From: Frankiales bacterium
GTDB taxonomy: Bacteria > Actinomycetota > Actinomycetes > JAFAQI01
Length of the DNA: 13,383 nucleotides
Direction of reading: 5' to 3'
NCBI GenBank assembly: GCA_019246495.1
Contig: JAFAQI010000539.1
Span: 1 to 13,383, forward strand
This document shows, piece after piece, positions 992 through 11,326 of the stretch. Both the position numbers and the translations under genes were made by a program. The notes under the pieces were generated by a model. It saw only the letters and a program-made list of their open reading frames with translations, was not told the origin of the DNA and made no database searches. Numbering within the stretch: the stretch's first letter is position 1; every line of letters starts with the position of its first letter.

Positions 992-2038
992 GTGACAGAC
1001 ACGCTTCGGCTCGCGGTGATCCCGGGCGACGGCATCGGGTCCGAGGTCGTCGCCGAGGGCCTGAAGGTCCTCGACGCAGTCCTCGCGCTCGACGGCGACA
1101 AGGTCGACGCGACGTCGTACGACCTCGGTGCCGCGCGGTGGCACCGCACCGGCGAGACGCTGCCCGACAGCGTCCTGGCGGAGCTCCGCGGGCACGACGC
1201 GATCCTGCTCGGCGCGGTCGGCGACCCGAGCGTGCCGTCCGGTGTGCTGGAACGCGGGCTGCTGCTCAAGCTGCGCTTCGCGTTCGACCACGCGGTGAAC
1301 CTGCGGCCGGTGAAGCTCTATCCCGGCGTCAGCACCCCGTTGCGGGACGCCGGGCCGGATGACATCGACATCGTCGTCGTGCGGGAGGGCACCGAGGGCC
1401 CGTACGCCGGAGTCGGCGGCGCACTTCGTCATGACACGGCTCAGGAGGTCGCCACCGAGAACAGCGTGAACACCCGGTGGGGCGTCGAGCGGGTGGTGCG
1501 TGACGCGTTCCGCCGCGCAACTGCGCGACCACGTCGCAAGCTGACGCTAGTGCACAAGACCAACGTGCTGACCCACGCCGGCTCGCTGTGGTCGCGCACG
1601 GTCGACGCGGTCGCGCCGGAGTTTCCGGACGTCACGGTCGACTACGCCCACGTCGACGCCGCCTGCCTTTACTTCGTCACGCAACCCGCGCGGTTCGACG
1701 TGGTCGTCACGGACAACTTGTTCGGCGACATCGTCACCGACCTCGGCGCGGCGATCGCCGGCGGCATCGGCCTCGCGGCCAGCGGCAACCTCAACGTCGA
1801 CGGCACGGCGCCCAGCATGTTCGAGCCCGTCCACGGAAGCGCACCCGACATCGCCGGCCAGGGTCTCGCCGACCCCACAGCGACCGTGCTGTCGGTGGCG
1901 ATGCTGCTCGAGCACACCGGCCGGCCGGCGGCGGCCCAGCGGGTGGAGCAGGCCGTCGCGGCCGACCTCGCCGAGCGTGGCGACAGCCGCCGGTCGACCT
2001 CCGCGGTGGGCGACGCGCTCGTCAGCCGACTCGGCTGA
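992..2038 (+). CDS. leuB: 3-isopropylmalate dehydrogenase
   Basis: A 348-residue cytoplasmic enzyme of normal length. It oxidises and decarboxylates (2R,3S)-3-isopropylmalate with NAD+ to 2-oxoisocaproate, the third step of leucine synthesis. The N-terminus ([19 protein letters not shown]) matches the beta-decarboxylating dehydrogenase family. Visible motifs are the substrate-binding Arg stretch around [20 protein letters not shown] with catalytic Tyr138, VHKTNV with catalytic Lys189, and metal-binding Asp222, Asp246 and Asp250 (in HVDA and NLFGDIVTD). The C-terminal [14 protein letters not shown] segment is the cofactor loop. GTG at 992 is the start because the family N-terminus begins there; the open frame extends far upstream only inside the permease gene. 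ilvE follows after 16 bp. leuC lies at the right edge of the window, about 11 kb away, so the leu genes are dispersed, as is usual in actinobacteria. Confidence 0.96.
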
Positions 2039-2042
2039 GCCT

Positions 2043-2048
2043 TACCCT
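2043..2048 (+). promoter_or_regulatory. Candidate -10 element (TACCCT) for leaderless ilvE mRNA
   Basis: TACCCT sits exactly 6 nt before the ilvE ATG, within the 16-bp leuB-ilvE gap, and there is no Shine-Dalgarno sequence. The same hexamer at the same distance precedes the FAH-family gene at 8221. A clear -35 is not visible, so ilvE may be expressed both from leuB read-through and from this site. Confidence 0.5.
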
Positions 2049-2054
2049 CTGTCC

Positions 2055-3134
2055 ATGGGACTGCAGTTCGTGGTCGAGCCGACCGCCACGCCGACGAGCG
2101 CCGACGCTCTCGCCGAGATCCTCGCCGCCCCGGGGTTCGGCAAGCACTTCACCGACCACATGGCCACGGCGACCTGGACCGCTGATGACGGTTGGCACGA
2201 CGCGCGCATCCGTCCCTACGGCCCGCTGCAGCTCGACCCGGCGACGCACGTCTTCCACTACGGCCAGACCATCTTCGAAGGCTTCAAGGCCTATCACCAG
2301 CCGGACGGGACCATCGCGACGTTCCGCCCCGCGGCGAACGGTGAGCGGTTCGTGCGGTCGGCCGCGCGCATGGCCCTTCCCGCGCTGCCCGTCGAAGACT
2401 TCGTGACGGCTGCGGACCTGCTCATCCGGCAGGACGCGGCGTGGGTGCCGACCGACCCCGAGACGAGCCTCTACCTCCGGCCATTCATGATCGCGACCGA
2501 GGTCGGTCTCGGCGTGCGCCCGGCAAGCGAGGTGACGTTCCTCGTCATCGCGTCGCCCGCCGCGTCGTACTTCGGTGCCGTCGTACGGCCCGTGACGATC
2601 TGGCTGTCCGAGGACTACTCCCGCGCCGCACCGGGCGGCACCGGCGCGGCGAAGTGCGGCGGCAACTACGCCGCGAGCCTCGTCGCGCAGCAGGAGGCCA
2701 TCGCCAACGGCTGCGACCAGGTCGTCTTCCTCGACGCGGTCGAGCGTCGGTGGGTCGAAGAGCTCGGCGGGATGAACATCTTCTTCGTGCTCGACGACGG
2801 CACGCTCGTCACACCTGAGTTGACCGGCAGCATTCTCGAAGGCGTCACCCGCGACACCGTGCTGACGATCGCGAAGGAGCTCGGCCACGAGGTCGAGGAG
2901 CGGCGCGTCGACGTCGACGAATGGCGCAAGGGCGCCGAGACCGGCCGGATCACCGAGGTCTTCGCCTGCGGCACTGCGGCGGTCGTCACGTCCCTCGGCT
3001 CGCTGCGCTGGCGCGGCGGCGAGGTGACGATGCCGGCCGAGATGCCCGTCGCCCAGCGGGTCCGCGACACGCTCGTCGGCATCCAACACGGCCTTCTTCC
3101 CGATCCGCACGGCTGGCTGCATCGCGTCCCCTGA
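2055..3134 (+). CDS. ilvE: Branched-chain-amino-acid aminotransferase
   Basis: A 359-residue PLP-dependent (fold type IV) aminotransferase that makes or degrades Leu, Ile and Val by exchange with glutamate/2-oxoglutarate. The length and the N-terminal extension before FGKHFTDHM fit the longer actinobacterial/eukaryotic-type IlvE rather than the shorter E. coli type. Key signals are HYGQTIFEGFKAY near residue 75, the PLP lysine in GAAKCGGNYAAS (Lys200), EELGGMNIFFV, GSILEGVTRDTVL and EVFACGTAAVV. ATG at 2055 gives the expected N-terminus MGLQFVVEP. It lies between leuB and the CBS-domain gene, in keeping with a branched-chain amino acid cluster. The downstream gap to the CBS gene is 28 bp. No unusual residues noted. 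Confidence 0.96.
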   Translation: MGLQFVVEPTATPTSADALAEILAAPGFGKHFTDHMATATWTADDGWHDARIRPYGPLQLDPATHVFHYGQTIFEGFKAYHQPDGTIATFRPAANGERFVRSAARMALPALPVEDFVTAADLLIRQDAAWVPTDPETSLYLRPFMIATEVGLGVRPASEVTFLVIASPAASYFGAVVRPVTIWLSEDYSRAAPGGTGAAKCGGNYAASLVAQQEAIANGCDQVVFLDAVERRWVEELGGMNIFFVLDDGTLVTPELTGSILEGVTRDTVLTIAKELGHEVEERRVDVDEWRKGAETGRITEVFACGTAAVVTSLGSLRWRGGEVTMPAEMPVAQRVRDTLVGIQHGLLPDPHGWLHRVP

Positions 3135-3162: not shown

Positions 3163-3546
3163 ATGCAGGTCCGTGACGCCATGAGCACCGACGTCCTCAC
3201 CGTGGGACCGAGCCACACCCTGCGCGAGGCGGCGGCCCGGATGTCGAGCCGCAAGGTCGGCGCCGTCGTGGTCATGAACCCCGATCACGACCAGCCGGGG
3301 ATCCTGACCGAGCGCGACGTGCTCGACGCGGTGGGGACCGGCCAGGACGTCGACGTCGAGAAGGTCGGCGACCACCTCACCAGTGACATCGTCGTCGCCT
3401 CGCCAGATTGGCCGCTGCCGAAGGCCGCCGCGACCATGGTCTCCGGCGGCTTCCGTCACCTCGTGGTGTGCGACGGTCCGGAGGTCGTGGGTGTGCTCTC
3501 GGTCCGCGACATCGTCCGCGTCTCGACATCCGAGACAGTGTCTTGA
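3163..3546 (+). CDS. Double CBS-domain protein
   Basis: A 127-residue cytoplasmic protein made almost entirely of two CBS domains (about residues 1-58 and 65-120), which pack as a Bateman module. Each ends in the ligand-binding signature: GILTERDVL (46-54) and GVLSVRDIV (110-118), with Asp52 and Asp116 in the ribose-binding position. CBS pairs generally bind AMP, ATP, SAM or related adenosyl ligands and act as energy or metabolite sensors. No enzymatic or DNA-binding domain is attached, so it probably works through a partner. An AGGAGG at 3152-3157, 5 nt before the ATG, supports the start; TACGCT at 3140-3145 could be a -10 element. It sits between ilvE and the cimA leader, so a role linked to branched-chain amino acid metabolism is possible but only inferred from position. 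Its stop overlaps an ATG (TGATG at 3544-3548). Confidence 0.9.
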   Translation: MQVRDAMSTDVLTVGPSHTLREAAARMSSRKVGAVVVMNPDHDQPGILTERDVLDAVGTGQDVDVEKVGDHLTSDIVVASPDWPLPKAAATMVSGGFRHLVVCDGPEVVGVLSVRDIVRVSTSETVS

Positions 3547-3571
3547 TGGGCGGAACCCGGTGGCGCAGACT
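3543..3571 (+). promoter_or_regulatory. Candidate promoter for the cimA leader transcript
   Basis: TTGATG (3543-3548) and CAGACT (3566-3571) are spaced by 17 bp. Transcription would start near 3578, only a few nucleotides before the leader-peptide ATG at 3582. The -35 overlaps the stop codon of the CBS gene. Both hexamers are imperfect, so read-through from upstream genes is the alternative. Confidence 0.4.
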
Positions 3572-3581
3572 CGACGCCGAC

Positions 3582-3623
3582 ATGACCATCCACCGGATCA
3601 TCATCGCCAGGCGCGTCGGCTGA
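3582..3623 (+). CDS. Isoleucine-rich attenuation leader peptide of cimA
   Basis: A 13-codon ORF, MTIHRIIIARRVG, too short for normal gene calling. Four of 13 residues are Ile, three of them consecutive (ATC ATC ATC at 3597-3605). Its stop codon lies in the loop of a 10-bp hairpin, and a strong intrinsic terminator follows 17 nt later, immediately before the cimA ribosome binding site. This is the layout of amino acid attenuation leaders, with isoleucine as the sensed residue, which fits citramalate synthase as entry enzyme of an isoleucine pathway. No Shine-Dalgarno precedes ATG 3582, so the leader may be leaderless. A longer in-frame version starts at ATG 3546, overlapping the CBS stop, and would give 25 residues by translational coupling. 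That the peptide is translated is inference; the codon run and RNA structures are seen. Confidence 0.75.
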   Translation: MTIHRIIIARRVG

Positions 3624-3640
3624 GCTTCCCGCCGACGCGC

Positions 3641-3677
3641 AACCCCTCGCTGGTCATCAGCGGAGGGGTTTTTTCTT
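3641..3677 (+). terminator. Intrinsic (rho-independent) terminator upstream of cimA
   Basis: Left arm AACCCCTCGCTG (3641-3652), loop GTCAT, right arm 3658-3670 with one unpaired G, giving a 12-bp GC-rich stem, followed by a T-tract through 3677. It lies just before the cimA ribosome binding site (GAGAGGA, 3678-3684), so it must be conditional if cimA is to be expressed. Confidence 0.88.
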
Positions 3678-3689
3678 GAGAGGACCGCA

Positions 3690-5297
3690 ATGACGACCGA
3701 GGTGCCCCCGGCGTACGACGCCGAGGCCTTGCACGTCTATGACACGACGCTGCGCGACGGCAGCCAGCGCGAAGGCCTGTCGCTGTCGGTCGAGGACAAG
3801 CTCGCGGTCGCGGCTCATCTCGACGACCTCGGTGTCGGGTTCATCGAGGGCGGTTGGCCCGGCGCGAACCCGAAGGACGCGGCGTTCTTCCGCCGCGCGG
3901 CCGACGGCGAGCTGCGGCTCCGGCATGCCCAGCTTGCGGCGTTTGGCGCGACGCGCAAGGCCGGCGTCAAGGCGGCTGACGACCCGCAGGTGCAGGCGCT
4001 GCTCGACGCACGGACGCCGGTCGTGACGCTCGTCGCCAAGTCACACACTGGACACGTCGAGCGGGCGCTGCGGACCACGCTCGACGAGAACCTCGCGATG
4101 ATCCGCGACACGGTCGCCTTCCTGCGGGCCGAAGGTCGCCGGGTGTTCCTGGACGCGGAACACTTCTTCGACGGCTACGCACTCGACCGCGACTACGCAC
4201 TGGCGGTCGTTCGCACGGCGTACGACGCAGGCGCCGACGTCGTCGCGTTGTGCGACACCAACGGCGGGATGCTGCCCGGCCGGCTCGCCGACATCGTCGC
4301 CGAGCTCGCGGCCGAGGGAATGCGCGTCGGCATCCATGCGCACAACGACACGTCCTGTGCGGTGGCCAACTCGCTCGCGGCCATCGCCGCCGGTGCGACG
4401 CACGTGCAGGGCACCGCCAACGGCTATGGCGAACGCGCCGGCAACGCCGACCTGTTCGCCGTCGTCGCCGGACTCGAGGTGAAGCTCGACCGTCGGGTGC
4501 TTCCGCCGGGAACGCTCGCCGATCTCGTCCGCGTCAGTCATGCCATCGCGGAGCTCGCCAACATCGCGCCGGACCCGCATCAGCCGTGGGTCGGCGCGAG
4601 CGCCTTTGCGCACAAGGCCGGGCTGCACGCGTCCGCGCTCAAGGTGGATCCGGATCTCTACCAGCACACCGATCCGGCCGTCGTGGGCAACGACATGCGG
4701 GTGCTCGTGTCCGAGCTCGCCGGTCGCGCTTCGGTCGAGCTCAAGGCACGCGCGCTCGACATCGCGGTCGACCGGGAGACGGTCGGCCGGGTCATCGACC
4801 GCGTGAAGGAGATGGAGGCCGCCGGCTACTCCTTCGAGGCGGCGGAGGCGTCGTTCGAGCTCCTGCTTCGTGAGGAGGTCGACGGCGTGCGGCCGCGGTT
4901 CTTCGAGCTGGAGTCATACCGCGTCATCACGGAGAGCCGCCCCGCCGGCGACGGAAGCGAAGAGATGACCCACGTGTCGGAGGCCACGGTCAAGCTGCAC
5001 GCCAAGGGGGAGCGGATGGTCGCGACCGGCGAGGGCAACGGACCGGTCAACGCACTCGACCGGGCCCTGCGCCAGGCGTTGGAGCGGGTGCATCCGCACC
5101 TCGCCACGTTCGAGCTCGTGGACTACAAGGTGCGCATCCTCGAGGGCGCACACGGCACCGGCGCCGTGACGCGCGTCCTCGTCCGGACCTCGGACGGCCG
5201 GACCGAGTGGGACACCGTCGGCGTCGACGAGAACGTCATCGCCGCGTCCTGGCAGGCCCTCGACGACGCCTACACATTTGGGCTCTTGCGCCGCTGA
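3690..5297 (+). CDS. cimA: Citramalate synthase
   Basis: A 535-residue enzyme of the alpha-isopropylmalate/homocitrate synthase superfamily. It condenses pyruvate with acetyl-CoA to (R)-citramalate, the first step of threonine-independent isoleucine synthesis; LeuC/LeuD and LeuB then usually carry the product to 2-oxobutyrate. The N-terminal HMGL-like TIM barrel contains YDTTLRDGSQREG (Arg22, Asp23), GWPGANPKD, CDTNGGMLPG and the metal-binding HAHND (His216, His218). The C-terminal LeuA-type regulatory domain (roughly residues 405-530) normally binds the feedback inhibitor, here expected to be isoleucine. GWPGANPKD and the overall length favour the CimA subgroup over 2-isopropylmalate synthase, though some actinobacterial members carry looser names. 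ATG 3690 has a GAGAGGA site 5 nt upstream. The Ile leader and terminator in front indicate attenuation. The last codons lie in a tandem repeat that continues downstream. Confidence 0.9.
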   Translation: MTTEVPPAYDAEALHVYDTTLRDGSQREGLSLSVEDKLAVAAHLDDLGVGFIEGGWPGANPKDAAFFRRAADGELRLRHAQLAAFGATRKAGVKAADDPQVQALLDARTPVVTLVAKSHTGHVERALRTTLDENLAMIRDTVAFLRAEGRRVFLDAEHFFDGYALDRDYALAVVRTAYDAGADVVALCDTNGGMLPGRLADIVAELAAEGMRVGIHAHNDTSCAVANSLAAIAAGATHVQGTANGYGERAGNADLFAVVAGLEVKLDRRVLPPGTLADLVRVSHAIAELANIAPDPHQPWVGASAFAHKAGLHASALKVDPDLYQHTDPAVVGNDMRVLVSELAGRASVELKARALDIAVDRETVGRVIDRVKEMEAAGYSFEAAEASFELLLREEVDGVRPRFFELESYRVITESRPAGDGSEEMTHVSEATVKLHAKGERMVATGEGNGPVNALDRALRQALERVHPHLATFELVDYKVRILEGAHGTGAVTRVLVRTSDGRTEWDTVGVDENVIAASWQALDDAYTFGLLRR

Positions 5298-10449: not shown

Positions 10450-10521
10450 TGGGGTATGGGGTAATTGGCAGCCCGGCTGATTCTGGTTCAGCTAGTCTAG
10501 GTTCGAGTCCTGGTACCCCAG
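10450..10521 (+). tRNA. tRNA-Gln (anticodon CTG)
   Basis: A full 72-nt cloverleaf. Acceptor TGGGGTA pairs with TACCCCA (10514-10520), with discriminator G10521. The D arm contains AATTGGCA. The anticodon stem GCTGA/TCAGC (10476-10480, 10488-10492) encloses loop TTCTGGT with anticodon CTG at 10483-10485, reading CAG. The T arm is CTAGG-TTCGAGT-CCTGG. CCA is not encoded. It is 33 nt after gltX and 22 nt before tRNA-Glu. Confidence 0.97.
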
Positions 10522-10543
10522 CGAAAGGCTCATCAGCACCCTG

Positions 10544-10616
10544 GCCGCCATCGTCTAGAGGCCTAGGACGCCGCCCTCTCAAGGCGGTAGCACGGGTTCA
10601 AATCCCGTTGGCGGTA
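10544..10616 (+). tRNA. tRNA-Glu (anticodon CTC)
   Basis: A full 73-nt cloverleaf. Acceptor GCCGCCA pairs with TGGCGGT (first pair G-T wobble), with discriminator A10616. The anticodon stem CCGCC/GGCGG encloses loop CTCTCAA with anticodon CTC at 10578-10580, reading GAG. The T arm is ACGGG-TTCAAAT-CCCGT. CCA is not encoded. It forms a pair with tRNA-Gln downstream of gltX. Its last 19 nt are overlapped on the opposite strand by the end of the HNH gene. Confidence 0.97.
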
Positions 10617-11326
10617 CTCGAGTAATCTACTCCAGTTTTCCCGGCCAGAAGATGCGGGGCGTATTGCCGCAGCAGATGGACGGCGTACGAAATCTTGTCC
10701 GAGACTCGCTGCCCGCTCGGTTGCGAGCTGTTCCACAGCTCCAAGTTCTCGATTCGATTGTCGAGTCTGTTGCCGTTGACGTGATGAACGCTTTCCGTCG
10801 GCAGCAGCGGTCGTCCGAGATGCTGCGCCATGACGAGTCGATGTTCCAGTGCGGACGAGTCGCCGCCAACGAGTGGCCTTAGCTCCGGCGGAACGGGGAC
10901 CACGAAATAGCCGTGACTGACGTAGCCGACGCCGGGCAGGTCCTTGATGGGCACGTGCTCCATCGGATCTCCCACGCGGAGAAGCCGGCGGTAGTGGTTG
11001 CGGCACAACTGCCTGGCGTAGGCCTCTCGCTGGCAGGTAGTCAGACGGCACTCGTGATTTCGCCGACGTCCGATCGGTTGCTGGTCATCAATGCTTCCAT
11101 CGCGCCGGAGCCGCTGATAGTGCGCGTGACACAACCCCTGCTCGGTTGCGACGCGTCCGCACGCGCGGGCGAAACACATCGCGGCCCGCGCGCGCTCCCC
11201 GACGGGAATGTCGCCAGTGGTCGAACCGGTGCGCTGTCGTCGTCGGTAGTGCGCCTCGCAGAGATGTCGCGCATAGATGCGTCGCGCGCATCCGTCGACG
11301 CTGCACGGGTGTTGTTCGCCGGACAT
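10598..11326 (-). CDS. HNH endonuclease with three Cys/His zinc-finger-like repeats
   Basis: A 242-residue putative nuclease. The C-terminal half has the HNH signature LEHRLVMAQHLGRPL...VHHVNGNRLDNRIENLELW (residues 160-198; His181, His182, Asn190, Asn194), as in phage and mobile HNH proteins that nick or cut DNA with a beta-beta-alpha-metal fold. The N-terminal half holds three repeats of C-x4-C-x9-C-x2-H-Y: Cys8/13/23-His26, Cys51/56/66-His69 and Cys93/98/108-His111, spaced 42-43 residues, probable zinc-binding DNA-recognition modules. ATG at 11326 is chosen because GGAGG (11332-11336) lies 5 nt upstream; GTG at 11332 would overlap that site. The last codons run into tRNA-Glu and its terminator. 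Third codon positions are less G/C-biased than in neighbours, suggesting acquisition. No integrase, terminase or restriction partner is nearby, so a homing or solitary role is likely but unproven. Confidence 0.88.
   Translation of the reverse strand: MSGEQHPCSVDGCARRIYARHLCEAHYRRRQRTGSTTGDIPVGERARAAMCFARACGRVATEQGLCHAHYQRLRRDGSIDDQQPIGRRRNHECRLTTCQREAYARQLCRNHYRRLLRVGDPMEHVPIKDLPGVGYVSHGYFVVPVPPELRPLVGGDSSALEHRLVMAQHLGRPLLPTESVHHVNGNRLDNRIENLELWNSSQPSGQRVSDKISYAVHLLRQYAPHLLAGKTGVDYSSTANGI
10616..10639 (+). terminator. Probable intrinsic terminator of the tRNA unit
   Basis: ACTCGAGTA (10616-10624), loop ATC, then TACTCCAGT (10628-10636): 8 of 9 pairs with one C-C mismatch, followed by a TTTT run ending at 10639. 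It begins at the tRNA-Glu discriminator base and lies within the coding end of the convergent HNH gene. The T-tract is short, so efficiency is uncertain. Confidence 0.6.

Follow-up and report, generated by a model that had tools for sequence, protein, structure and literature searches.

The cimA locus and its leader

The window, by which we mean the whole stretch of 13,383 nucleotides that was analysed, carries leuB (within 980-2038), ilvE (ORF 1977-3134), a small CBS-domain gene (3163-3546) and cimA (3690-5297, forward strand). The CBS-domain gene, for which no curated family cut-off was reached, lies between ilvE and a leader element, and all three of these upstream genes stand 5′ of the leader and on the same strand. 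The putative target of the leader is cimA, whose product matches the model TIGR00977 with 634.4 bits (cut-off 450) and whose ATG at 3690 is preceded by GAGAGGA, in agreement with the citramalate synthase and ribosome binding site named by the first-pass annotation. A comparable CBS-domain gene 5′ of cimA was noted by eye in several relatives. Elsewhere in the window, tRNA-Gln (ctg) and tRNA-Glu (ctc) (10450-10617) lie immediately 3′ of gltX.

The same annotation had assigned cimA to a threonine-independent isoleucine pathway. The implied independence needs a caveat: at E 0.001 the threonine ammonia-lyase model found matches in all 16 genomes searched, the window's own included, and its cut-off was exceeded in 12 of them, the own genome matching in part only. 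Thus, isoleucine synthesis probably has two entry routes, cimA being one of them.

The leader ORF (3582-3623, forward strand) encodes MTIHRIIIARRVG in 13 codons, from an ATG at 3582 to a TGA at 3621-3623. Three consecutive isoleucine codons, ATC ATC ATC, form the putative sensor run (3597-3605), and a fourth isoleucine codon is found at 3588. Folding bore out both hairpins of the original description: a 10-bp hairpin, H1 (3611-3640, forward strand; arms 3611-3620 and 3631-3640), whose loop opens with the leader TGA, and, abutting it, an intrinsic-terminator-like hairpin with a T-tract (3641-3674, forward strand), which consists of a 12-bp stem with one bulge (3641-3670) and six T residues (3669-3674). 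The segment 3546-3690 folds better than shuffled sequences (z -2.7), with one of 200 shuffles as good. By eye, a promoter-like pair, TTGATG (3543-3548) and CAGACT (3566-3571), spaced 17 nt apart on the forward strand, precedes the ORF, and CAGACT ends 10 nt 5′ of the leader ATG. The -35-like hexamer TTGATG overlaps the stop codon of the CBS-domain gene. A longer ORF from the in-frame ATG at 3546, which overlaps the same stop codon, is possible but was set aside; in 72 of 88 distinct leaders, 5-6 codons separate the closest usable start from the isoleucine run.

Conservation, anatomy and folding of cimA leaders

The first-pass annotation had staked its attenuator on conservation in relatives, and such conservation was found. 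A CimA search at E 0.001 gave a match in 59 of 60 genomes (own included, weak paralogue matches counted). From the upstream regions of true cimA genes we assembled a class set of 48, the window included. A short ORF with at least two consecutive isoleucine codons occurs in 36 of these. The Ile-Ile ORF of L042, which overlaps coding sequence and has no hairpins, is spurious and was not counted, and three upstreams with a single isoleucine codon adjoining the hairpin (L009, L025, L043) were counted as bearers, so that 38 of the 48 share the anatomy of the window's leader. It is absent from the other ten class upstreams (L008, L010, L013, L017, L018, L021, L035, L037, L038, L042). In the window's own family it was present in all 11 readable upstreams (L001-L007, L031-L034), the assembly of G001 having yielded no CimA.

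We then applied a fixed detector to 156 cimA upstreams, which comprise the 48 class loci, the best 80 named-genome loci among the matches listed and 29 additional ones found in 100 genomes sampled from the phylum; the set contains the window and some loci present twice, and L125 was dropped because its gene start is missing. Of these 156 upstreams 90 were positive. None of 156 reverse complements and none of 156 gene interiors were, and 20 dinucleotide shuffles gave 0-3 positives of 156 each. Named bearers among the matches listed include Streptomyces, Nonomuraea, Kribbella, Amycolatopsis, Kutzneria and Micromonospora, as well as Pseudonocardia, Lentzea, Cellulomonas and Demequina. Two metagenome bins titled Bifidobacterium breve (L093 and L098) carry a cimA about 63% identical to that of the window, and these record names may be wrong. 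By the fixed detector, the leader is absent from 25 of 26 cimA loci of other classes (L132-L157). The one positive, L144, from genome G123 of a different class within the phylum, has MRNATTAARIIIIR before cimA, with an unrelated hairpin sequence and a similar order of parts; it may have been either kept or independently evolved.

Removal of identical leader cores, under a T-tract rule slightly looser than that of the fixed detector, reduced the 156 loci to 88 distinct leaders. In every one of these, the sensor run consists of isoleucine codons alone, two, three and four of them in 62, 23 and 3 leaders, respectively. Sensor runs favour ATT, a rare codon, over the genome-typical ATC: ATT accounts for 122 of 205 sensor-run codons versus 30 of 478 isoleucine codons within the initial 700 nt of the matched cimA genes. 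TAG is the stop codon in 52 of 88 leaders versus 22 of 75 cimA genes. The window's leader, with ATC and TGA, departs from both preferences. H1 most often starts 5 nt 3′ of the isoleucine run (47/88; range 1-8), and its position is maintained whether the stop codon falls 0-6 nt past the run (41 leaders) or 12-30 nt past it (47). The predicted gap between H1 and the terminator is zero in 79 of 88 leaders, as against 21% of shuffles; 43% of all shuffles failed to yield two hairpins. The mean folding z-score is -5.7, and 87 of the 88 leaders score below -2.

A TGTGnCAnACT-like motif lies about 6 nt 5′ of the leader start in the 88 leaders, and a Shine-Dalgarno-like motif was found in only four. 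Both observations fit a leaderless transcript, and the leader ORF is probably leaderless, or almost so. Leaderless transcripts have been reported for other S. lividans leaders in the available part of PMC8079986.

Exchanging hairpin arms between species provided evidence for both hairpins. When H1 3′ arms were swapped, the number of paired positions out of 10 dropped from 9.31 to 6.73, the best of 500 swaps reaching 7.39. Duplex energies were -20.8 kcal/mol for native and -15.2 for swapped H1, and -18.1 and -13.5 kcal/mol for the terminator, each native duplex being better than 60 of 60 swaps. RNAalifold on 14 aligned leaders gave 16 pairs, in four of which at least one sequence has both partners altered. 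Relatedness inflates such positives, and the swap test does not register invariant bases, such as GCGC at the foot of H1.

The two hairpins had been proposed to be mutually exclusive, and this part of the proposal found no support. We searched for an overlapping antiterminator by constrained folding in four ribosome states and by arm swaps of 12 helices in the 88 leaders, and only H1 and the terminator stood out; the ten alternative helices gave no co-variation, with 16 to 60 of 60 swaps as good. For folding by ribosome state we masked the RNA under the ribosome. Mean H1 pairing was 0.93 with no ribosome, 0.76 with the A site on the first isoleucine codon of the run, 0.43 on the last and 0.00 on the stop codon. 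In contrast, the terminator was predicted at a mean of 0.95 in each of the four states, and above 0.8 in 85-87 of the 88 leaders. Because the terminator is predicted in every ribosome state, no base-pairing switch is visible, and in these models H1 and the terminator stand in tandem, compatible rather than alternatives. If the front edge of a ribosome is taken to lie 12 nt past the start of the A-site codon, then in 88 of 88 leaders a ribosome on the first isoleucine codon of the run would overlap H1 by no more than 3 nt, and on the stop codon its front edge would reach 9-36 nt past the start of H1, again in all 88. H1 would therefore read ribosome position in both stop-codon classes.

Kin leaders before ilvB, ilvA-like genes and leuS

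To the best 150 candidates from each of 30 whole genomes we applied a covariance model, R1, built from 14 cimA leaders. Among the candidates scored there were 56 matches, of which 12 covered the H1 part only and 44 were full-length. Twenty full-length matches precede cimA (14 being the training sequences), 19 precede ilvB, with E-values down to 1.3e-13, and five lie elsewhere: before an ilvB fragment (L193), an ilvA-like gene (L194) and leuS (L195, L196), and at L197. The last (E 4e-4) was taken as a chance match, no branched-chain gene being present in the downstream sequence read. Thus, in these 30 genomes, 43 of 44 full-length matches precede branched-chain amino acid genes or leuS. In ten genomes that carry no leader at cimA, R1 matched nothing there, and eight of the ten have matches before ilvB, ilvA-like genes or leuS. 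In both genomes examined of family f18 (G028 and G048), a leader with isoleucine codons precedes an ilvA-like gene and none is found at cimA. These leaders, at L194:428-518 (G028:C171) and L202 (G048:C1:1220467-1220537), encode VAQHLMIISWAREPA and, with one isoleucine, VTVHEMAIT (by eye), and the best matches of the ilvA-like proteins are to threonine ammonia-lyase models, at scores below the curated cut-offs. The leuS leaders L195, L196 and L204 read, by eye, MQVELLLSPPR, MDLAARLLLAGPR and MRSGLLLA.

From 30 ilvB loci we obtained 12 readable leaders; L166 could not be oriented, and 17 others gave none by rule. The 12 carry mixed isoleucine, leucine and valine codons, often ATT and GTA, in a sensor run 0-5 nt 5′ of H1, and their H1-terminator gap is 0 (nine leaders) or 1 nt (three). 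A strict search had suggested that the window's genus lacks ilvB, a reading withdrawn after a looser search, which found three pieces in G000 and G001, two of them strong, and in G002 a weak match that does not establish the gene there.

As far as sequence can tell, the cimA leader is a sister, with a sensor run of isoleucine only, of the actinobacterial ilvB leader already described in PMC1262725, and rarer copies of the cimA-type leader stand before ilvA-like genes and leuS. Besides the R1 matches, the ilvB leaders share recurrent peptide ends such as RVG or RAG, and two of them (G029, G049) are identical to the S. lividans IlvL peptide MRTRILVLGKRVG given in the accessible text of PMC8079986. 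They differ in their mixed codons and their target gene. The Corynebacterium ilvBNC attenuator, or ilvB-II motif, as presented in excerpts of PMC11857589 and PMC10272879, resembles the cimA leader in its branched-chain uORF, a transcription start near the start codon and its terminator, but has an antiterminator that overlaps the terminator, an overlap not seen in cimA leaders. The M. tuberculosis ilvB1NC attenuator, compared by its description in part of PMC13236596, shares the proposed logic, in which stalling lets an upstream hairpin form and a ribosome at the stop codon masks it, and differs in having LVVI codons, ilvB1 as its target and hairpins described as mutually exclusive. The Streptomyces leuS leader (LeuL2; PMC8079986 and PMC1262725, partial texts) stands before a gene at which R1 likewise finds leaders (L195, L196, L204), but has leucine codons, an aminoacyl-tRNA synthetase as its target and an antiterminator drawn in PMC1262725.

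In the available portion of Seliverstov et al. 2005 (PMC1262725), elements are given for trp, trpS, leuS, ilvB, cys and leuA, and T-boxes for ileS, with none for cimA; the same portion calls the mode of action of ilvB leaders unclear. The accessible part of the S. lividans study (PMC8079986) lists eight leader peptides, none for cimA, and cimA does not occur in the part of PMC11109978 at hand. The literature surveyed and Rfam 15 contain no description of an attenuator at cimA, which is weak evidence of absence, most subscription journals lying outside the survey. The cimA leader belongs to a known kind of leader, and its switching step is possibly unusual.

Probable isoleucine sensing and possible roles of H1

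The 88 distinct leaders place an isoleucine-only codon run before an isoleucine gene, and a predicted terminator with T-tract and co-varying arms between the ORF and that gene. The product of citramalate synthase serves isoleucine alone, and an isoleucine-only run, as opposed to the mixed runs of ilvB leaders, matches that role. Together, the conserved run, the hairpins, their spacing, the promoter-like motif and the co-variation within each hairpin strongly support the isoleucine-codon attenuator that the first-pass annotation had placed before cimA; these features, like the ORF itself and the kinship with ilvB leaders, are read directly from the sequence. We therefore consider it very probable that the leader attenuates transcription of cimA through a translating ribosome and in response to the level of charged isoleucyl-tRNA, a degree of confidence that covers isoleucine sensing and attenuation and excludes the contact step described below. 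The cell most likely makes citramalate synthase only when isoleucine is short. Termination in the cell, its response to isoleucine, the direction of that response and the action of H1 on the terminator are steps that we infer.

In the proposed mechanism, transcription would begin at or slightly 5′ of the leader start codon, and a ribosome would translate the 13 leader codons behind RNA polymerase. With sufficient Ile-tRNA, the ribosome would reach the stop codon and cover the 5′ arm of H1, so that H1 is blocked and the terminator ends transcription. When Ile-tRNA is scarce, it would stall on the isoleucine codons; its front edge would then lie at the foot of H1, leaving H1 free to form, and polymerase would read through into cimA. 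Starvation is expected to raise gene expression at a biosynthetic attenuator, and if it raises cimA, H1 must oppose termination. Since no strand shared between the hairpins was seen, we prefer contact at their junction: H1 would touch the base of the terminator, which, with no spare nucleotide between the two, could not close fully in the RNA exit channel. We give this step somewhat less than an even chance, and rank it above the two other roles considered for H1.

One of these is that H1 acts mainly as a pause hairpin and keeps polymerase in step with the ribosome, read-through being set by the closeness of the ribosome instead of by H1 opposing the terminator. The fixed distances from isoleucine run to H1 to terminator, and the failure of ribosome position to alter predicted terminator strength, agree with this reading, which nevertheless offers no simple reason for the zero gap that is so much rarer in shuffles; we regard it as rather unlikely. 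Slightly less likely still is a classical four-strand attenuator, in which a stalled ribosome masks the foot of H1, the freed 3′ arm of H1 pairs with the terminator 5′ arm as an antiterminator, and release at the stop codon yields H1 plus terminator. A ribosome with its A site on the last isoleucine codon does cover the H1 foot, lowering H1 pairing to 0.43; by eye, the 3′ arm of H1 repeatedly shows GCG and the 5′ arm of the terminator CGC; and antiterminator and terminator overlap in the Corynebacterium ilvBNC leaders (PMC11857589, in the part available). However, with a mean of -3.0 kcal/mol the helix in question falls well short of the terminator (-18.1), and 59 of 60 species swaps do as well. 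The swap test being blind to invariant bases, an antiterminator that excludes the terminator, which was not found by it, could at a similarly low probability be a weak helix of such bases. Given that no alternative helix co-varies and the terminator is predicted equally in all states, we propose that the cimA leader acts like a ribosome-mediated attenuator and do not claim the four-strand type.

Two further readings were considered. The terminator might merely mark the 3′ end of an upstream transcript, with an incidental ORF, as its position after leuB, ilvE and the CBS-domain gene on the same strand would allow. This is highly improbable, because the isoleucine run, H1 spacing and promoter-like motif are conserved while the preceding sequence differs between genomes, and because model matches concentrate before cimA and ilvB. 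A riboswitch or T-box, suggested by a structured 5′ region ahead of a biosynthetic gene, is the least probable of all: at the gathering thresholds of Rfam 15, the window matched two tRNAs only, and 20 related loci matched no family, whether T-box, riboswitch, leader or other.

Several points weigh against the attenuator or its contact step, among them its absence from ten of the 48 class upstreams and 25 of the 26 loci of other classes, and the prediction of the terminator in every ribosome state. H1 is predicted to form without a ribosome too (0.93), and it could re-form after ribosome release at the stop codon. Double adjacent hairpins have reportedly been described elsewhere as termination sites (PMC8355165), whereas H1 would have to act as an antiterminator. 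Regulation by the S. coelicolor ilvB leader was reportedly unaffected by codon substitutions, as stated in the available portion of PMC1262725. In favour of the attenuator, an M. tuberculosis ilvB1 leader reporter was no longer induced once its LVVI codons had been replaced by alanine codons, according to the part of PMC13236596 at hand.

More tentatively, and with a little less confidence than in the contact step, we suggest a class-wide actinobacterial type of attenuator (cimA, ilvB, an ilvA-like gene and leuS) whose switch would involve no alternative base pairing: H1, under the control of the ribosome and with no spare nucleotide, would block terminator closure by contact. This element may have moved between two isoleucine entry enzymes, standing at cimA in most families seen, whereas two genomes examined from one family lack it at cimA and have it at an ilvA-like gene.

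Citramalate synthase is used in metabolic engineering, and the attenuator proposed here predicts isoleucine-specific control of this enzyme across many actinobacteria. Two abutting, non-competing hairpins would offer a concrete alternative to the textbook scheme and make the action of ilvB leaders testable.
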